The position numbers were made by a program, and so were the translations under genes. From Streptococcus suis (GTDB lineage Bacteria; Bacillota; Bacilli; Lactobacillales; Streptococcaceae), in NCBI RefSeq assembly GCF_016743335.1, contig NZ_WCJE01000001.1, positions 62,001 to 126,000 on the forward strand: a stretch of DNA of 64,000 nt. Reading direction: 5' to 3'. Positions 563 through 53,887 of this stretch are shown in pieces; within the stretch, counting starts at the first letter, position 1; each line of letters opens with the position of its first letter. The notes under the pieces are model-generated. The model was not told the DNA's origin and did no database searches. It worked only from the letters and a program-made list of their open reading frames with translations.

Positions 563-566
563 TTAT
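534..566 (-). terminator. Rho-independent terminator of EetB-like gene
   Basis: Inverted repeat AATCTCC (537-543) / GGAGATT (557-563). On the minus strand it is followed by CTTTTT. It overlaps the stop codon of the Gx-transporter gene. Confidence 0.7.
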
Positions 567-1102
567 TTCCATTCTGCTAAGACTTGTTGATGATAGTGAC
601 GTAAAGGTCCGACCTTTTGGAGGAGGTAGGTAGCAGCCAGTCCGACCAATAAGCCTGATAGAATTCCAGTAAAAGCGAGGATTGGCAGGTAGTTCAGTAC
701 ATAGAAAGAACGGGCGATGGTAGCAAAAACAAGAAGCTGACCAAGATTGTGCAACATCCCACCCAGAATAGAAATTCCAATAGGACTGACACGGTTTGGA
801 CCGAGCTGCTTGGCAGAGAGCATTCCTACATAACTCAAAGTAGTTCCGGCAAAGCCATAGAGGAATGTGGAAAAGGTGCCTCCCAGAAAGGTTGAGATGA
901 GCAAGCGTAGTGCGACAACCTTTAGGCTATCCTTTGTAGGGAGGGTAAAGATAGCGATCAAGCTAATTAAATTTCCCAGTCCTAGCTTGGCACCTGGAGC
1001 AAAGGCAAATGGGGGGGTGATGAGTCGTTCAATCAAAGAAATGACAACTGCCTGAGCTGCCAGCATCGTAATAAAGTTAAGTGTTTGACGTTTAGAATTC
1101 AT
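563..1102 (-). CDS. Gx transporter family membrane protein (EetB-like)
   Basis: A 179-residue, very hydrophobic protein with about five membrane segments and the Gx_transp (heptaprenyl diphosphate synthase component I-like) look, including PPFAFAPGAKLGLGNLISL near residues 30-48. In Listeria-type flavin-based electron transfer loci a Gx-transporter protein (EetB) is needed for electron export, though its biochemistry is unsettled. It is divergent from ndh and has its own promoter (1147-1175) and terminator. Homologues are often annotated HepS, but this protein has no prenyltransferase motifs, and the DDxxD-containing synthase is the separate gene at 3196. The EetB assignment rests on family plus neighbours. 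Confidence 0.8.
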   Translation of the reverse strand: MNSKRQTLNFITMLAAQAVVISLIERLITPPFAFAPGAKLGLGNLISLIAIFTLPTKDSLKVVALRLLISTFLGGTFSTFLYGFAGTTLSYVGMLSAKQLGPNRVSPIGISILGGMLHNLGQLLVFATIARSFYVLNYLPILAFTGILSGLLVGLAATYLLQKVGPLRHYHQQVLAEWK

Positions 1103-1146
1103 GGGTGTAGAGAAAAAACTCTTTCTAGTCGATTATCTATTTTACT

Positions 1147-1175
1147 ATCATACTTGTTTTTGTTCACTATGGCAA
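1147..1175 (-). promoter_or_regulatory. SigA-type promoter for the EetB-like gene
   Basis: Minus strand TTGCCA (1170-1175), 17-base spacer, TATGAT (1147-1152). It lies 45 bases upstream of the gene and back-to-back with the ndh promoter, so one regulator could act on both. Confidence 0.6.
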
Positions 1176-1212
1176 GTTTTGTTTGTGTATATTACTAATT
1201 ATTGAAATTCGC

Positions 1213-1241
1213 TTGTCAACTATCTTGGAATACGATATAAT
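1213..1241 (+). promoter_or_regulatory. SigA-type promoter for the ndh operon
   Basis: TTGTCA (1213-1218), 17-base spacer, TATAAT (1236-1241), 43 bases upstream of the ndh GTG. This is a near-consensus promoter. Confidence 0.75.
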
Positions 1242-1284
1242 GGGAACATGTCATTTGTTGTGAATTTCACAAGGAGGTAAAATT

Positions 1285-3177
1285 GTGACGAAAAATATTG
1301 TGATTGTCGGTGCTGGTTATGCAGGGATTGCAGCAGCTCGATTGCTAGGAAAAACCTTTAAAAAGGATCAAGATGTAACAGTTACCTTGATTGATAAGAA
1401 CTCTTTCCATACCTATATGACAGAGTTGCATGAAGTTGCGGCTGGGCGTGTGGAAGCAAGTGCAATCAAGTATGACCTTCAACGTATCTTCAAAAAATAT
1501 CCAAAGGTTCAATTAGTAACAGACAAGGTTGTGGAGATTGACTATGATAAGAAACAAGTCGTAGCAGAGCACCAAACCCTGGATTTTGATTATCTGCTTC
1601 TTGCAATGGGAGGTGAAGCTAATGACTTTGGTGTGAAAGGTGTTAAGGAACACGGTTTTACACTTTGGTCTATCGAGGCAGCAGAACGTTTGCATGACCA
1701 CATGATTGATGCTTGCTATCGTGCCATGCGTGAGCATGATGAAGCCAAACGTCGCGCTCTTTTAACCTTTACCGTTATCGGTGCTGGCTTCACAGGTATT
1801 GAGATGATCGGTGAGTTGATTGACTGGGTACCAATTTTGGCGCGTGAGTTCAAGTTGGATCCAAAAGAATTCTCTCTCAAGGTTGTCGAAGCAACGCCAA
1901 ATATCTTGGCTATGGTTACTGAAAAAGAGCAAGTCAAGGCACGTAAATACCTTGAGAAAAAAGGTGTTGAATTGGTACTTGGCGATGGTGTAGCAAGTGT
2001 ACAAGAAGATAGCTTGACACTTTCATCAGGTCGTCAAATTCCTACCTATACCTCTATTTGGACAGCTGGTGTTCAAGCCAATACAGACGCAAGTGAATTT
2101 GGTATTGAAAAAGCACGTGCAGGTCGTTTGGTAGCCAATGAGTTCATGGAAGCGAAAGGCAAGGAAAATGTCTATGTAGCTGGCGACTTGGTTTACTTTG
2201 AAGAATCAGAAGGAAAACCAACTCCACAGATTGTACAAGCAGCTGAACAGACAGGTCATACGGCAGCAAGCAATATTATTGCAGCAATCAAGGGTGGCGA
2301 AAAGCATAGCTACAAAGGTAAATATGATGGGTTTATGGTGTCTATTGGAGCACGCTACGGTGTAGCCTTCTTGATGGACAAATACCACATGTCAGGCTTT
2401 ATGGCAATGGCTGTCAAACACATGGTAAACCTACTCTACTTCTTTACCATCCGTAGTTTCTTCTACATGGGTTCTTATGTTCGTCATGAATTCTTTGACA
2501 TTCAGAATAAGCGAAACATTTTTGGCGGTCATACTTCAGGCAAAGGAAATCTTCTCTGGTCTGTGCCAATGCGTGTCCTTTATGGTTCAGTATGGCTCTA
2601 CGAAGGTATCAAGAAAGCCTTTGGTCTATTTGGAACAACATCATGGTTTGGGGATCAAGTTGTCTTCCCATTCCCTTGGTTAGCTGATCCAGTATCTGGT
2701 GCATCTGCTGCTGAGGCGGTTTCAAGTGCCTCACAAGCGGCAACTGCTGCGGCAGAAGCAGCTGAACCAATTTTTGGTTTGAGCTATGCCTATGGTGAAG
2801 CACCGATGGCTGTTTTGGACAAAATGCCTGATTGGTTTGCTTCTATCATGGAATTTATGATGCCAAACCAAGAAGTTGCTCTCTTTATGCAAAAATTCAT
2901 GACAGTAGCAGAAATCGGTATTGGTCTGGCTTTGATTGCTGGTGCCTTTGTATGGATTGTATCTGCTGCAACGGTTGCTTTGGTAGTTATGTTCAGCCTG
3001 TCAGGCATGTTCTACTGGGTAAATATTTGGTTCATCCCAGCAGCTATTTCTCTTATGAATGGTGCGGGTAGAGCCTTCGGTCTAGACTACTGGATTATGC
3101 CGTGGTTGGGTCGTTTCCTAGACAAGAAGATTTATGGAAAGCCCAAGCATATTTACCGTATCAAGGATAAAAAATAA
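1285..3177 (+). CDS. ndh: Type II NADH dehydrogenase with C-terminal membrane extension (Ndh2)
   Basis: A 630-residue flavoprotein that would oxidise NADH and reduce a membrane quinone without proton pumping. Two Rossmann dinucleotide motifs are visible: VGAGYAGIAAARLL near residues 8-21 (FAD) and IGAGFTGIEMIGEL near 165-178 (NADH), plus AGDLVYF near 305. Ordinary NDH-II proteins are about 400 residues. This one adds roughly 230 residues with several hydrophobic helices (about 375-400, 430-455, 545-600), as in the Ndh2 of extracellular electron transfer loci. The start is GTG with AAGGAGG 8 bases upstream. It is first in an operon with the polyprenyl synthase 18 bases downstream. S. suis has no full respiratory chain, so electrons may go to DHNA-derived quinone and then extracellular acceptors (inference). 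Confidence 0.92.
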   Translation: MTKNIVIVGAGYAGIAAARLLGKTFKKDQDVTVTLIDKNSFHTYMTELHEVAAGRVEASAIKYDLQRIFKKYPKVQLVTDKVVEIDYDKKQVVAEHQTLDFDYLLLAMGGEANDFGVKGVKEHGFTLWSIEAAERLHDHMIDACYRAMREHDEAKRRALLTFTVIGAGFTGIEMIGELIDWVPILAREFKLDPKEFSLKVVEATPNILAMVTEKEQVKARKYLEKKGVELVLGDGVASVQEDSLTLSSGRQIPTYTSIWTAGVQANTDASEFGIEKARAGRLVANEFMEAKGKENVYVAGDLVYFEESEGKPTPQIVQAAEQTGHTAASNIIAAIKGGEKHSYKGKYDGFMVSIGARYGVAFLMDKYHMSGFMAMAVKHMVNLLYFFTIRSFFYMGSYVRHEFFDIQNKRNIFGGHTSGKGNLLWSVPMRVLYGSVWLYEGIKKAFGLFGTTSWFGDQVVFPFPWLADPVSGASAAEAVSSASQAATAAAEAAEPIFGLSYAYGEAPMAVLDKMPDWFASIMEFMMPNQEVALFMQKFMTVAEIGIGLALIAGAFVWIVSAATVALVVMFSLSGMFYWVNIWFIPAAISLMNGAGRAFGLDYWIMPWLGRFLDKKIYGKPKHIYRIKDKK

Positions 3178-3195
3178 AGGAAATATAGAAAGTTA

Positions 3196-4185
3196 GTGGT
3201 ACATCAAATTTGGAATACCTATCCTGAGATTGAGAGGGGACTTGAAGAGGTAAAATCCATCATCTTATCTGAGATGATGGTCCTGCATCCAGCAGTTACA
3301 TCGAAGATTGTTGAATATGTAGAGGCACCAGGGAAATACCTGCGTGCTGGCCTCTGTCTACTCTTTGCACAAATGACGGAAGGAAAGATTAGCCGTTCAA
3401 AGCTATATTTTGCTGCCCATTTAGAAGTTCTGCATCTGGCGACTCTTATTCATGACGATGTGATTGATGGCGCGGATAAACGGAGGGGAGTCACGGCGGC
3501 TCATCAACAATTTTCGAATCGAATCGCTATCTACACGGGTGATTATCTTCTGGCCTATTCAAGTCGACTATTTGGAAAAGGGCTTCGTTTGCTAGAAGTA
3601 TCATGTGATGATTTGGATTTGGGCAATGATAAGCTGATGGAAACAATTCTTCGAGGAGAATTATCTCAGCTACTCAATCAATTTGATGCCAATATGACTA
3701 TGAAAGCCTATCTCAAGCAAATTCAAGGAAAAACAGCTTTTCTATTTGGACTTGCCTGTCAACTTGGGAGTTTTGTACCAGGTCAATCTAGGAAAGACAG
3801 TAGCATGGCTTTTCGGTCTGGGCAAGCACTTGGCATGGCCTTTCAGCTACGAGATGACTTAATTGACTATCAGCTGGATGTAGCAGAATCAGGAAAACCT
3901 AGATTGCAAGATATTCAAAACGGTATCTATACTGCACCGCTACTATTTGCTATGCGAGAAGACAAGTCTATCCAGCAACAATTGCGGGCTTATATTCAAT
4001 CCCCTACGGCAGAAGGGTTGGAAATCCTTACAGATAGGATTTTTGCAACGCATGCTATTGCCAAAACAGAGAAACTGATTGTTAGCTATTTGGAAAAAAT
4101 GATGAATTTTGTAGATAGAATACCACAGTTATCGACTGCGTCTATGCAAAATTTGGTGGCAATAGTTTTTAGTCATTATTTTTAA
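3196..4185 (+). CDS. Polyprenyl diphosphate synthase (DmkB-like)
   Basis: A 329-residue trans-isoprenyl diphosphate synthase that extends an allylic diphosphate with isopentenyl diphosphate to make a long polyprenyl tail. Both aspartate-rich motifs are present: LIHDDVIDGADKRRG near 90-104 and LRDDLIDYQ near 219-227. The start is GTG at 3196, with a weak ribosome site. It sits between ndh and the PplA-like lipoprotein, so the product is probably the side chain for a demethylmenaquinone-type quinone made with the UbiA protein at 5862. This matches DmkB of the Listeria locus. The chain length cannot be told by eye. Confidence 0.88.
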   Translation: MVHQIWNTYPEIERGLEEVKSIILSEMMVLHPAVTSKIVEYVEAPGKYLRAGLCLLFAQMTEGKISRSKLYFAAHLEVLHLATLIHDDVIDGADKRRGVTAAHQQFSNRIAIYTGDYLLAYSSRLFGKGLRLLEVSCDDLDLGNDKLMETILRGELSQLLNQFDANMTMKAYLKQIQGKTAFLFGLACQLGSFVPGQSRKDSSMAFRSGQALGMAFQLRDDLIDYQLDVAESGKPRLQDIQNGIYTAPLLFAMREDKSIQQQLRAYIQSPTAEGLEILTDRIFATHAIAKTEKLIVSYLEKMMNFVDRIPQLSTASMQNLVAIVFSHYF

Positions 4186-4263
4186 AAAAATACTAGACAA
4201 TTTAGTTTATTAGGTATATCATTATAAATATAAAACTATTTACTTTACAAAAGGAGTATTGTT

Positions 4264-4743
4264 ATGAAAACAACTAAAGTTGTGTTGAAAAGTTTGGTAG
4301 TTCTTGGTGCGGTATTTGCACTTGCTGCTTGCGGTTCTAAACAAGAATCTACTTCAACTTCATCTTCAACTACAGAAACAGTAGTATTGAAAGATGGTAC
4401 TTACAAAGCTGAGTCAGGCAAAGACGATTATGGCTACAAAATTGTTCACACATTGACTGTTAAAGACGGAAAAATCAGTGAGTCAAAATTTGACTACGAA
4501 GCTGAAGATGGAAGTCTTAAATCAGCAAATGAAGAGTACAACAAAAACATGAAAGATAAAGCTGGAGTTTCTGCTGGTGAAGCAATCGAACAACTTAATG
4601 CAGCTTTAGTGAAAGAACAAGACCTTTCAGCTGTTGAAGTTGTCTCAGGTGCAACACAGACTTCAGAAGACTTCAAGAAGAGTACAGAAGCCCTTCTTGC
4701 AGCAGCTGCTGAAGGAAAAACAGAAACTGTAAAACTTGACTAA
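4264..4743 (+). CDS. FMN-binding-domain lipoprotein, PplA-like extracellular electron carrier
   Basis: A 159-residue secreted lipoprotein. It has a signal peptide with lipobox LAAC (acylated Cys23), a Ser/Thr-rich linker (29-40), then one small FMN-binding domain. SGATQTS at 128-134 fits the [S/T]GATxxS flavinylation motif, in which ApbE attaches FMN to the Thr (here Thr131). Listeria PplA carries two such domains; this protein has only one. The ApbE enzyme follows directly. It would sit on the outer face of the membrane and pass electrons from reduced quinone to soluble acceptors. A strong ribosome site (AAGGAG) precedes the ATG. Function is by family and context. Confidence 0.88.
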   Translation: MKTTKVVLKSLVVLGAVFALAACGSKQESTSTSSSTTETVVLKDGTYKAESGKDDYGYKIVHTLTVKDGKISESKFDYEAEDGSLKSANEEYNKNMKDKAGVSAGEAIEQLNAALVKEQDLSAVEVVSGATQTSEDFKKSTEALLAAAAEGKTETVKLD

Positions 4744-4757
4744 TTTAGTCAGTTCAG

Positions 4758-4803
4758 AAAGACACAGTCGCACTTGTTTGGCTACTGTGTCTTCTTATTT
4801 TTT
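4758..4803 (+). terminator. Hairpin between PplA-like and ApbE genes (attenuating terminator)
   Basis: AAAGACACAGT (4758-4768) pairs with ACTGTGTCTT (4784-4793), followed by CTTATTTTTT. It lies inside the operon, so it probably lets only part of transcription reach apbE and menA. The same stem core recurs at 6824-6859. Confidence 0.65.
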
Positions 4804-4819
4804 AGGGAAGGTAAAATCA

Positions 4820-5869
4820 GTGAAAAAAATTGCAAGTCTATTGTTCGTGGGCCTACTGATGGTTTTGCTTGTTGCCTGTGGTGGTAAACAAAACGAAAGT
4901 TTATCTGTTGTGAAAACTCCGTTGACTCGTAGTGAAAGCTTACTTCACACAGTAGTGCAATTGAGCATTTATCATGAAAATCAGGAAGAAGCGATGGATG
5001 AAGCTGTCTCCTATATCAAGGAGATGGAAAGTCTGTTGTCCACAAACTTGGAAGGGGCAGATGTCTACCGTATCAATCAGGCAGCAGGAAAAGAAGCTGT
5101 TGAGGTGGATGAACGTACCTTTGAAGTGATTGAAACAGCTATTGACATGAGTAAAGAAAGTCAGGGGCTATTTGACATTTCCATTGGAGCTGTGAGCAAT
5201 CTGTGGAAAATTGGAGATGAGGATGCACGTAAGCCGAGTGATGAAGAAATCAAAGCTGCTCTGCCATTTATCAATTATAAAGACATTACTTTAGATAAGG
5301 AGAAGAAGACCGTCTTTATCAAAGAAGGAATGACGCTAGAATTAGGAGCCATTTCCAAAGGTTATATTGCAGATAAGGTTAGAGAATTGTTTGTCAGCAA
5401 AGGGATAACGACAGCCATCATCAATCTAGGCGGGAATGTAGTGGTTATGGGGGATTCGCCTACGACGCAAAATGGTTGGAATGTGGGAGTTCAGGACCCA
5501 GACCAAGTGCGTGGAGCAACGGTTGGTTCTGTGCCAGGGACACATAATTCCGTTGTTACCTCAGGTATTTATGAGCGCTACTTAGAGGTGGACGGTGTCA
5601 AATATCACCATATTCTTGATCCCAAAACTGGCTATCCTGTGGAAAATGATATCTCAGGTGTGACAGTCTTTTCCAAAACATCTATCCAAGGAGATGCCTT
5701 ATCCACAACTCTCTTCTTACTAGGTGTGGAAAAAGGTCTTAACTTTATCAATCAGATTGATGGTGTAGAAGCTGTTTTCATCGATAAGGAGCAGGGCGTT
5801 CATCTGAGTGATGGTTTGAAAGAAAGCTTTGAATTAACAAATGAGGAGTATCATCTTGTCAATGAATAA
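4820..5869 (+). CDS. apbE: FAD:protein FMN transferase, ApbE/FmnB-like lipoprotein
   Basis: A 349-residue lipoprotein that transfers FMN from FAD to a threonine of target proteins outside the membrane. The start is taken at the GTG at 4820: it gives a clean signal peptide with lipobox LVAC (Cys20) and a GGGAAGG ribosome site. The longer in-frame start at 4736 would put 28 unrelated residues before the signal and overlap the hairpin. ApbE features include GAISKGYIADKV, NLGGNVVVMG, HHILDPKTGYPV and the GDALSTTLFLLG segment. Its obvious substrate is the SGATQTS lipoprotein just upstream. Equivalent to FmnB in the Listeria electron transfer locus. Confidence 0.92.
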   Translation: MKKIASLLFVGLLMVLLVACGGKQNESLSVVKTPLTRSESLLHTVVQLSIYHENQEEAMDEAVSYIKEMESLLSTNLEGADVYRINQAAGKEAVEVDERTFEVIETAIDMSKESQGLFDISIGAVSNLWKIGDEDARKPSDEEIKAALPFINYKDITLDKEKKTVFIKEGMTLELGAISKGYIADKVRELFVSKGITTAIINLGGNVVVMGDSPTTQNGWNVGVQDPDQVRGATVGSVPGTHNSVVTSGIYERYLEVDGVKYHHILDPKTGYPVENDISGVTVFSKTSIQGDALSTTLFLLGVEKGLNFINQIDGVEAVFIDKEQGVHLSDGLKESFELTNEEYHLVNE

Positions 5870-6818
5870 ATCAACTAAAGGACTCAGTTTGCCTGTATTT
5901 CTAGAATTTGTTGAAATGAAGACCAAGGTAGCCAGTGTATTTCCAATGACCCTGGGGATTTTATGGAGCCTGTATCGCTATCAAGCTTTCAATTGGCTCA
6001 ATACACTTTTGTTCGTTCTTGCCGTACTCAGCTTTGACATGTGTACAACTGCCATCAACAATAGCATGGACTACTACAAGGCCAAGGATGAAATCTATCG
6101 CCAGGAAAGTAATGTGATTGGGAAATTCTCCCTTGATTTTCGGCAGATGATTGGAATCGTCTTTGCCTTACTCATTTTTTCAGTGATTATTTCATTAGTG
6201 CTTGTTTGGCGGACCAGCTGGCTCCTATTACCAATGGGGGCTCTCTGTTTTCTCATTGGTATCTTTTACACCTTTGGCCCTATTCCACTTTCGAGAATGC
6301 CGCTGGGTGAAGTTTTCTCTGGAGTAACCATGGGATTTGGGATTTTCTTCTTAGCAGTCTTTATCCAAGACCCAGCTGGGCTATTGACCAGTCAAGTAAG
6401 TAGTCAATGGATGACCTTGCAGTTCTCTTGGACAAAAATAATAGACATTATTTTCATGTCCCTTCCTTTGGTAACCTTGATTGCCAATATCATGTTGGCC
6501 AACAATACCTGTGATTTAGAAGAAGACATTCGCAACCATCGTTATACTCTGGTTTACTATATTGGCAAGAAAAATGCTCTTAAATTGTATTTTGTCTTGG
6601 CAAGTTTACCATGGTTGCTGTGGATAATTTACTGTCTGACTGGATTCTTACCTATCTGGGCATTGCTTGGTTTATTCGGAGCCTTGCCTGCTTATAAGAG
6701 TCTAGAAATATTTTTGAAAAAGCAAGTCAAACGGGAAACCTTTATCGAGGCAGTAAAGAGTTTTGTACTCTTTGCGCTGCTATATGTGGTGATACTTGCT
6801 TTAGCCCTTATTTTCTAA
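5862..6818 (+). CDS. menA: UbiA-family prenyltransferase (MenA/DmkA-like)
   Basis: A membrane protein of about 318 residues with 8-9 helices. It carries the two aspartate-rich UbiA motifs: NNSMDYYKAKDE near 65-76 and NTCDLEEDIRNH near 215-226. The family prenylates 1,4-dihydroxy-2-naphthoate (DHNA) to demethylmenaquinone. No DHNA-synthesis genes occur in the window, so imported DHNA is the likely substrate (inference; DmkA role). The start is uncertain: ATG 5862 overlaps the ApbE stop, while TTG 5856 has the better spacing from GAGGAG at 5843. Last gene of the rightward operon. Confidence 0.87.
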   Translation: MNKSTKGLSLPVFLEFVEMKTKVASVFPMTLGILWSLYRYQAFNWLNTLLFVLAVLSFDMCTTAINNSMDYYKAKDEIYRQESNVIGKFSLDFRQMIGIVFALLIFSVIISLVLVWRTSWLLLPMGALCFLIGIFYTFGPIPLSRMPLGEVFSGVTMGFGIFFLAVFIQDPAGLLTSQVSSQWMTLQFSWTKIIDIIFMSLPLVTLIANIMLANNTCDLEEDIRNHRYTLVYYIGKKNALKLYFVLASLPWLLWIIYCLTGFLPIWALLGLFGALPAYKSLEIFLKKQVKRETFIEAVKSFVLFALLYVVILALALIF

Positions 6819-15320: not shown

Positions 15321-15360
15321 AGAAGGCAGTATAATGAAGAACCAGTATCCATTGTTGGTA

Positions 15361-15462
15361 TCGTCATTTAGTTTTTCTTTTTAACTCGCCTTGCCTAACT
15401 CCAGTTATGCCTGCGGTTCGTTGACTAGTACTAAAAGTAAGCTAAAAGACTATACTTGCCTT
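15361..15462 (+). repeat. Dispersed repeat in the 5' leader of the DEAD-box gene
   Basis: Contains TTGCCTAACTCCAGTTATGCC-like sequence (15389-15410) that recurs at 53025-53046 inside the FMN riboswitch region, and an AACTCGCC edge like that seen (reversed) near 25740. It reads open in the helicase frame, which is why a falsely long start at 15391 is possible; the extra 33 residues look nothing like a helicase. Confidence 0.6.
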
Positions 15463-25639: not shown

Positions 25640-25770
25640 TTAGTACTCGCTCAAACTGTCTGGGAGACAGTTTGAGATTGGAGATAAAGTGAACCAAGTT
25701 CACATCAAAAGCTGCAGACAGTACTGGAGTACGGCAAAGCGAGTTAACGACGTAATAAAAGATAAACGAA
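25640..25770 (+). repeat. Mosaic intergenic repeat (copy 2, short)
   Basis: CGCTCAAACTGTCTGGGAG / CAGTTTGAG hairpin, then ATTGGAGATAAAGTGAACC as in copy 1, followed by a different tail: GCAGACAGTACTGGAGTACG GCAAAGCGAGTTAACGACG then AATAAAAGATAAACG. The tail resembles the centre of the RUP-like element at 52201 and the right edge of the insert at 53130-53190. Confidence 0.75.
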
Positions 25771-52055: not shown

Positions 52056-52200
52056 AGTATCACGATTTCATTGATTTAACTCAAACCTGTTGTGAGTTAA
52101 GTGAATGAATCATCATTCACCATGCTGTTTGCTGAGCTTGACTCCGGGCAGTGTGGCTATTTTTTTGTCTTTCTTGCCATAGGAGACAGTCGAGTCTTTT

Positions 52201-52338: not shown

Positions 52339-52884
52339 ATGAATATTGAAACATTAGAGTATATAGAAGAAACAGCCAAAAACCACATTGTCTTATTTGA
52401 ACCACAGATTCCACAGAATACAGGCAATATTGCTCGAACTTGTGCTGCAACCAATAGTCCTCTCCATATCATTAAGCCTATGGGATTTCCAATTGATGAC
52501 CGTAAGATGAAACGTGCAGGACTAGATTATTGGGATAAGTTAGATGTTCGCTTCTATGACAATTTAGCAGAATTTATGGATTATGCCAGCAAACAAGGAC
52601 GTGTTCACTTAGTATCTAAATTTGCTGATAAAACCTATTCGGATGAAGACTATAATGATGGGAACATTCATTATTTCTTATTTGGTCGTGAAGATAAGGG
52701 CTTGCCAGAAGATTTTATGCGTGAACATCCAGAGAAGGCTATCCGTATTCCAATGAATGATGAACATGTGCGTAGTCTTAATGTCTCTAATACAGCGTGT
52801 ATGATTGTATATGAGGCTCTTCGGCAGCAACAGTTCGTTGGTCTAGATTTGGTTCACACCTATGATGGGGACAAGTTAAAATAG
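52339..52884 (+). CDS. trmL: tRNA (cytidine/uridine(34)-2'-O)-methyltransferase TrmL
   Basis: A 181-residue SPOUT methyltransferase acting on the wobble base of tRNA-Leu. Motifs: [24 protein letters not shown] near 14-37, [21 protein letters not shown] near 46-66, [14 protein letters not shown] near 114-127 and [28 protein letters not shown] near 135-162. Full length. GAGAGGTCCTT precedes the ATG. Confidence 0.95.
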
Positions 52885-52937
52885 TGAAAACTTACCAAGC
52901 TCTTGCAAATGCAAGGCTTTTTTGGTATGATGAAATA

Positions 52938-53266
52938 GTCTTCAGGGCAGGGTGAGATTCCCGACCGGCAGTGATTTTTTTGATTCTTGCTTTTCTTTTT
53001 CTCTCATTCGTCGTTGACCAGGCTTGCCTAACTCCAGTTATGCCTTCGCCTTGTCGCCTAGACTGATAGAAAAATCTTAAGCAACACTCAAAAAAAGTGT
53101 TTTTGTTTCATTTTAGGGCTAGGCAAGGAGGTGCAGACTATACTAAGGGTATGTCAAGCCGACTTAACGAAGCCATAAAATAGAAAGAAAGACACGTACA
53201 GTCTGCGAGCGAAAGCTGATGTGGTGCAATTCCACAACCGACAGTAAAGTCTGGATGGGAGAAGAC
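52938..53266 (+). promoter_or_regulatory. FMN riboswitch (RFN element) split by an insertion
   Basis: The 5' part 52938-52974 (GTCTTCAGGGCAGGGTGAGA TTCCCGACCGGCAGTGA) and the 3' part 53198-53266 (CAGTCTGCGAGCGAAAGC, GATGTGGTGCAATTCCACA, ACCGACAGTAAAGTCTGGAT, GGGAGAAGAC) are the conserved RFN segments. The closing helix GTCTTC (52938-52943) / GAAGAC (53261-53266) is intact. Between them lie about 220 bases not found in ordinary RFN elements, placed in the variable peripheral arm. It sits upstream of ribU, so FMN would turn off riboflavin import. Confidence 0.9.
52975..53195 (+). repeat. Dispersed repeat inserted in the FMN riboswitch arm
   Basis: Contains GCTTGCCTAACTCCAGTTAT (from about 53024), also present in the DEAD-box leader near 15388, and GTGCAGACTATACTAAGGGT / GACTTAACGAAGCC near its right end, related to the tail of the repeat at 25715-25765. 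Edges TTCGTCGTTGACC and GACTTAACGAAG are an imperfect inverted repeat. It includes an internal hairpin AACACT-CAAAAAAA-GTGTTTTTG that resembles a terminator (near 53083-53108). Confidence 0.7.
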
Positions 53267-53329
53267 GAAGTGGCGGCTTTTTGCCTGCCCTTCCACGCTT
53301 CTTCAATTTTCAAAAATTGGAGGAACCTT

Positions 53330-53887
53330 ATGACAAACACACGCAAAATGACGATTATAGCCATTCTCTCAGCAGTATCCTTTCTGCTCATGTATTTGAA
53401 ATTTCCGCTAATTCCAACAGCCAGTTTCCTGGAAGTGGATTTTTCTCTCGTACCGATTTTATTTGGTCTGCTTGTTTTAGATATGAAGTCTAGTTTTGCT
53501 ATCCTTTTGGTACGAACTTTTCTCAAACTGATTTTAAATAATCAGGGACCATCGACAATTATTGGCTTACCGATGAATATTGCAGCTATGTCAGTTTTCA
53601 TTTTAGCAGTAGCTCATTTCTGGAAAAATGAACAAACGTTAAAAAATTATTTAAAAGCAGCCGCTGTTGCGACGCTTGGTTCGACAGCAGTGATGCTGGT
53701 ATTAAATTACGTTTATGCGGTGCCTGTCTATGCAGCCTTTGCAAATTTTGATATTAAAGAAATCTTGGGTCTGACTAACTATCTTTTGATGATGGTACTT
53801 CCTTTTAATCTTTTACAAGGGATTGTGCTTTCAGCAATATTTTATATCTGTTACAAAGCAGCCCAACCTATTTTAAAGAAAGTTTAA
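53330..53887 (+). CDS. ribU: Riboflavin ECF transporter substrate-binding subunit RibU
   Basis: A 185-residue protein with six membrane helices, the S component of an energy-coupling factor importer. ILSAVSFLLMYLKFPLIPTASFLEVDFSLVPILFGLLVL near 12-50 and the Gly-Asn-rich NNQGPSTIIGLPMNIAAMSVF are typical of RibU. It joins the shared EcfA-A'-T module encoded elsewhere. Control by an FMN riboswitch fixes the substrate. ATG 53330 follows TTGGAGGAACCTT; a frame reaching back to 53219 runs into the riboswitch. Confidence 0.95.
   Translation: MTNTRKMTIIAILSAVSFLLMYLKFPLIPTASFLEVDFSLVPILFGLLVLDMKSSFAILLVRTFLKLILNNQGPSTIIGLPMNIAAMSVFILAVAHFWKNEQTLKNYLKAAAVATLGSTAVMLVLNYVYAVPVYAAFANFDIKEILGLTNYLLMMVLPFNLLQGIVLSAIFYICYKAAQPILKKV

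Follow-up and report, generated by a model that had tools for sequence, protein, structure and literature searches.

The P3 arm of the streptococcal ribU FMN riboswitch as a probable landing site, and apparently exchangeable cassette, for BOX-like repeats

The 64,000-nucleotide stretch of Streptococcus suis DNA analysed here (the window) carries on its forward strand a gene for the riboflavin transporter RibU (ECF S component; 53330–53887, start codon ATG at 53330), identified by phmmer matches to the RibU chains 3p5n, 5kc0 and 5kbw. Its upstream neighbour on the same strand (52339–52884) encodes a trmL-like methyltransferase (TIGR00185, E 5.1e-55, 185.6 bits, just below the cut-off of 190.6), upstream of which a 23S-methyl RNA motif (RF01065) occurs at 52065–52163. 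The region between the two genes includes a putative sigma-70-like promoter (TTGCAA-17-TATGAT; 52903–52931, +), recognised by consensus match only, whose -35 element is situated within a terminator-like hairpin (52901–52916) that follows the trmL-like gene. Just after this promoter lies an FMN riboswitch aptamer, which extends from P1 to P1 (52938–53266, +) as delimited by split Rfam RF00050 matches and a constrained fold, and its 3' end overlaps the expression platform (53258–53324, +). Elsewhere in the window, the genes at 563–6818 encode ApbE-like and NAD(P)H-dehydrogenase-like proteins, both under their NCBIfam cut-offs, as well as a DHNA polyprenyltransferase above its cut-off, and fit an electron-transfer locus, to which the initial annotation had supposed that RibU supplies flavin.

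The initial annotation had described the conserved RFN segments and the closing helix of the switch as intact, and this was borne out. The P1 halves GTCTTC and GAAGAC occur at 52938–52943 and 53261–53266, and P2, the base of P3 (GCAG/CTGC), P5 and P6 could all be located, so that the core letters and helices of RF00050 are present. When the window was scanned at the Rfam gathering score of 66.2, a curators' threshold rather than a structural feature, no FMN switch was reported. Below this score, RF00050 yields two partial matches (53106–53270, 49.3 bits; 52934–53091, 29.1 bits), the split being due to the 227 nt length of the P3 arm. The element is nevertheless classed as an FMN switch, since its near-twin in genome G021, which has a 105-nt arm and core halves identical to those of the window at 32/33 and 83/85 positions, scores 102.5 bits and passes the cut-off. 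Among 147 Streptococcus genomes, 146 have an FMN match, with 126 above the Rfam cut-off and twenty only below it; routine annotation can thus miss this switch.

The P3 arm (52973–53199, +) is bounded by GGCAGT and AGTCTGCGAGC and contains two oppositely oriented members of a single repeat family. Repeat A (52986–53083, +), a BOX-like sense copy with its own stem at approximately 52975–53096, was detected with covariance models R1 (94.2 bits) and R2 (E 9.3e-13), and repeat B (53097–53195, −), the stem of which spans the same coordinates, with R1 (89.8 bits) and R2 (E 8.8e-16). As the R1 training set includes A and B, the R1 scores of these two are not independent. R2 was built from thirteen dispersed copies in the same genome, none of them from the arm, to limit circularity. 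The claims about arms rest on R2 alone because R1 contains arm sequences, although the R2 training copies were located by BLAST with the arm as query and were therefore selected for their likeness to it. The arm insert has fourteen BLAST matches within its own genome, itself included, while R2 finds the family in sixty places, namely A, B and 58 others. The description of a large dispersed-repeat insert in the variable arm therefore holds, with the correction that the insert consists of two elements rather than one. By eye, the main genomic copies are about 106 bp long, with complementary ends and TA at their border; many dispersed copies with complementary ends are what is expected of a MITE-type element. 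Two further copies were found with R1 in the window, at 15358–15450 and 25675–25770.

Pairwise scores, each set against 200 shuffles, form a chain that connects A and B with a consensus made from the genomic copies and with arms from other species. Repeat A scored better than 200/200 shuffles against B, the genomic consensus, the arm types alpha and beta, and the copy nested in genome G006, as did B against every other non-BOX element. Several direct links failed, with the alpha–beta score reached by sixteen of the 200 shuffles, alpha–genomic consensus by six, alpha–G006 copy by seventy and A–S. suis arm of 105–106 nt by one. The BOX-like copy beat all 200 shuffles against 2/7 elements, the remaining five being reached by 1 to 24 shuffles, and the link of the family to BOX thus appears weaker than the links among the non-BOX elements. 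R2 does detect BOX-like copies in the arms of five relatives (E 2.3e-8 to 8.7e-7). We take these elements to be BOX-like on the strength of their BOX letters.

The parsed P3 arms of the genus span 3 to 328 nt, with neither sequence nor orientation being uniform, and reach at least 60 nt in 94/146 parsed FMN loci. The family, as detected with R2, occurs in the arms of 80/146 parsed loci, including sixty with one sense copy, nine with antisense copies only and eleven with two or three copies. The notion that the insert is an event unique to the source strain was rejected, as was that of one conserved native arm. The parsed set retains the second loci L062, L064, L141 and L148 and excludes five others (L004, L006 and L007, with arms of 15, 1 and 1 nt, and the unparsed L046 and L047), the addition of which would give 80/151. 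Four loci (L021, L022, L030 and L067) could not be parsed, and duplicate places (L033–L039 and L048–L058) were omitted. R2 is without a match in 14/94 long arms. Arms of at least 60 nt that lack an R2 match, and which perhaps hold other elements, include those of L060, L069, L075, L078, L081, L084, L085, L086, L091, L120, L141, L148 and L150, with L069 showing a weak R1 match. R1 itself found no match in 16/147 genomes, zeros that may conceal weak copies as strict filters were used and at most 27 candidates were scored per genome, and 15/16 of these genomes have arms of 13–18 nt; the exception, G129 (L076), has an 85-nt P3 arm. The FMN switch of the ribD operon of G060 (L064), where RibD lies above the NCBIfam cut-off, has an R2 match in the same arm, so that the repeat has entered the corresponding structural position of a second switch. 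The sole genome of the 147 without an FMN match is G110 (L229, 2049–2061), in which ribU begins approximately 11 bp after the trmL-like gene, leaving no space for a switch.

Outside the genus, R2 gave no match over forty outgroup genomes, and the 88 FMN matches from 79 outgroup genomes, which belong to the same order, are 111–149 nt long. On this basis the long arms look confined to Streptococcus, with the proviso that a strongly split switch could escape the outgroup search and that the remaining outgroup genomes were inspected only by eye.

Nested copies in relatives are evidence of insertion. Genome G006 has a window-type arm with a third copy inside B, and reads CCA-TA-[copy]-TA-AAATAG where the window reads CCATAAAATAG, so that TA stands on both sides of the copy and only once in the window. 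Similarly, in Streptococcus mitis SK642 (L196, the same as L066) a BOX-like element is located within another repeat (ACTT-TAA-[..]-TAA-GTATT versus ACTTTAAGTATT). Another BOX-like element is common to L042, L043, L070 and L072. The target-site duplications, TA for the nested copy of G006 and TAA for S. mitis SK642, were thus read in relatives only. No target duplications of A and B themselves were seen, and no empty S. suis site was found among records retrieved by one exact pattern, which strains with other letters at that place would escape. By judgement rather than computation, we infer seven to nine separate insertions, comprising A, B, the G006 copy, the antisense S. suis arm, alpha, beta, two BOX-like elements and that in the ribD switch of G060; A and beta are alike enough that they may represent one event.

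Strains that are otherwise nearly identical at this locus can differ in the arm. Among the records retrieved by the one pattern, S. suis strains 2256, 2187, 15 and 614 have a 106-nt arm, while strains 10581, YS56 and YS161 have an arm of 226–227 nt. The flanks of G021 and the window are identical at 329/330 upstream and 323/329 downstream positions, whereas their arms, of 105 and 227 nt, reach a local similarity of only 0.30 of the maximum. The single-contig genomes G014 and G021 have arms that likewise differ, between flanks that are 98.8 and 99.4 % identical. Clearly different arms (similarity 0.13–0.38) were found in 19/44 locus pairs with at least 97 % upstream identity, pairs which share members and are hence non-independent; in one of the nineteen, L066–L149, the difference is the nested BOX-like element. 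In the case of G133 (L073) and G080 (L165), 330 nt on each side and both core halves are identical, with upstream identity of 99.6–100 % across 2 kb, and yet the former has a 125-nt beta arm and the latter a 108-nt alpha arm. A phylogeny of the trmL flank (111 rows) requires the arm class to have changed at least 37 times, but 46/107 of its inner branches are unresolved, and the pair comparison is preferred on account of this weak resolution. Streptococci are often naturally transformable, and the alignments suggest that strains may exchange arms through homologous recombination in the two conserved halves of the aptamer. What looks new here is this apparent use of the P3 arm as an exchangeable cassette.

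Folding models point to an aptamer that could accommodate such elements. A (fold of 52986–53097) and B (−37.8 kcal/mol) each fold alone better than shuffled sequences (z −4.05 and −7.39), and their hairpins are identical with and without the imposed aptamer helices. The unconstrained minimum-energy fold of the window switch retains P1 and P2, lacks P3 and has P4–P6 rearranged, and the imposition of six helices costs 9.8 kcal/mol. When P1, P2, P3, P5 and P6 were imposed, a comparison that omits P4 and from which 3/146 loci with fewer than fifteen imposed pairs were dropped, the median cost was 7.1 kcal/mol in both 51 short-arm and 92 long-arm loci, with 7.5 kcal/mol for the window and 12.9 kcal/mol for G006 with its three repeats. 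As short- and long-arm loci pay alike, the reluctance of the folding model is not due to the insert. The cores of 94 long-arm loci have a mean of 0.87 mismatches, versus 1.40 in 52 short-arm loci, against a consensus of our own which may favour the majority. In 32 alpha arms 98.6 % of pairs are kept, with 44 double-change cells versus 14.5 in shuffles, counts that are inflated by related sequences. Window-type arms keep 97.9 % of pairs, with five double changes, all read as from L071, in an alignment of eight rather than nine independent rows (L065 and L195 are the same genome; L074 was omitted). Crystal structures of the FMN aptamer describe the P2/P6 and P3/P5 domains as a rigid scaffold (PMC7573352). 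The window insert lengthens the loop of P3, and the GU and AGUC letters that flank it are undisturbed. The proposal that the aptamer can accept mobile repeats in one of its outer arms, made from this locus alone, is thus backed by sequence, modelled folding and comparison, and applies far more generally than could be seen in one window.

The expression platform was modelled from folds of 53267–53335 and 53255–53335. In the fold without the 3' side of P1, a hairpin at 53299–53324 pairs the Shine-Dalgarno sequence GGAGG (53319–53323). An alternative pairing of 53258–53264 with 53298–53304 draws on the 3' side of P1 and disrupts this hairpin, although the minimum-energy fold of this state still weakly pairs part of the Shine-Dalgarno sequence and only the centroid frees it. 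These two states predict translational repression of ribU by FMN: FMN would stabilise P1 and release the CUUCUUC strand, which would pair with the ribU Shine-Dalgarno sequence and turn translation off, while in its absence this strand would pair with the 3' side of P1. Since transcription of the arm precedes completion of the aptamer, the arm should not shorten the decision time of the switch. A study of Streptococcus pneumoniae TIGR4 describes the tested regulators, including the FMN switch of ribU (SP_0488), as OFF switches in lacZ fusions, reports that the ribU switch responds to riboflavin in these reporters, and states that the tested regulators are highly conserved across strains (PMC10942264). 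A 109-nt repeat arm is present in two records named S. pneumoniae, the TIGR4 arm itself not being among those read.

The sequences by themselves establish that the arm holds two oppositely oriented elements of one family, that relatives carry nested insertions with apparent target duplications, and that different arms occur within near-identical flanks. Together with the folding models and the analogy to known systems, they make it highly likely that this is a working ribU FMN switch, into the P3 arm of which small palindromic repeats of BOX-like (MITE) type have landed recurrently, the arm also being apparently exchangeable as a cassette. These elements would enter the arm at TA and each form a separate hairpin, which would leave the core of the aptamer able to fold. 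A bolder version, in which streptococci acquire repeat hairpins at the arm as a plug-in site, nest them and trade them horizontally with the conserved aptamer halves as homology arms, and in which the different arms adjust how the ribU leader folds, how stable it is or how RNases process it, with arm type under selection and not merely tolerated, is conceivable but rather doubtful.

If the insert instead broke or weakened the switch, ribU expression would be either constitutive or permanently low, and the core would survive as a leftover. Both Rfam matches fall under the gathering score, the unconstrained fold loses P3 and rearranges P4–P6, and the apparent loss of the switch in G110 indicates that such loss is survivable. 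Against this stand the long-arm cores, which are no more mutated than those of short-arm loci, and the similar folding costs; furthermore, the same insert is found in several S. suis records and, with most pairs kept, in the more divergent G125 (L071), and is therefore not recent. This reading is improbable. A conditional or leaky expression of ribU through an internal terminator or processing site within the arm is still harder to credit. The terminator-like hairpin noted in the initial annotation (AACACT-7-AGTGTT followed by T, 6 bp; 53084–53108, +) is present in its letters, and long arm hairpins may be cleaved by RNase III. As a terminator, however, it was rejected: its fold is weak (−3.8 kcal/mol, z −0.63, with 47/200 shuffles equally good), it is absent from the output of the terminator scan, the stems of A and B take up most of its letters in their own pairing, and it is not kept in L071.

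A further reading, in which the long arm belongs natively to the streptococcal switch and is of old date, the repeats having arisen from it or resembling it by convergence, agrees with the frequency of long arms in the genus and with the pairing retained in alpha arms. The initial annotation had reserved this reading for the case of one conserved long arm in all streptococci, and what was found is the wide range of lengths, sequences and orientations given above. Nested copies with apparent target duplications, the short arms of nearly all genomes without R1 matches and the compact outgroup switches likewise speak against it; it is already largely contradicted, and we consider it extremely improbable. 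In preferring recurrent insertion into a working switch, we regard the locus as a ligand-binding RNA with a conserved core and one arm that has been repeatedly invaded and apparently exchanged, and thus as a natural experiment on the tolerance of an aptamer to insertion. The FMN switch has been studied as a drug target (PMC10942264).

No account of repeats inside an FMN aptamer was found in the titles and abstract openings listed from open-licence literature. Relative to the RFN element (RF00050), the window switch shares the core segments, the helices P1, P2, P3 base, P5 and P6, and the site upstream of ribU, but differs in a P3 arm built from two repeats and in its two sub-threshold matches. 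BOX-type elements have been reported in S. suis (Croucher 2011, PMC3049150). With these and the BOX elements of S. pneumoniae, as described in that paper, the arm family shares its small size, palindromic non-coding sequence, inverted ends and nested insertions; the termini differ from those of BOX, and the family is here called BOX-like rather than equated with RepSU1 or with box modules. The same source places a BOX element between the two T-box riboswitches of the pneumococcal trp operon. There, as in the window, a repeat is incorporated in a riboswitch leader, but the trp operon BOX is situated between two switches, whereas the repeats of the window lie inside a single arm of one aptamer.
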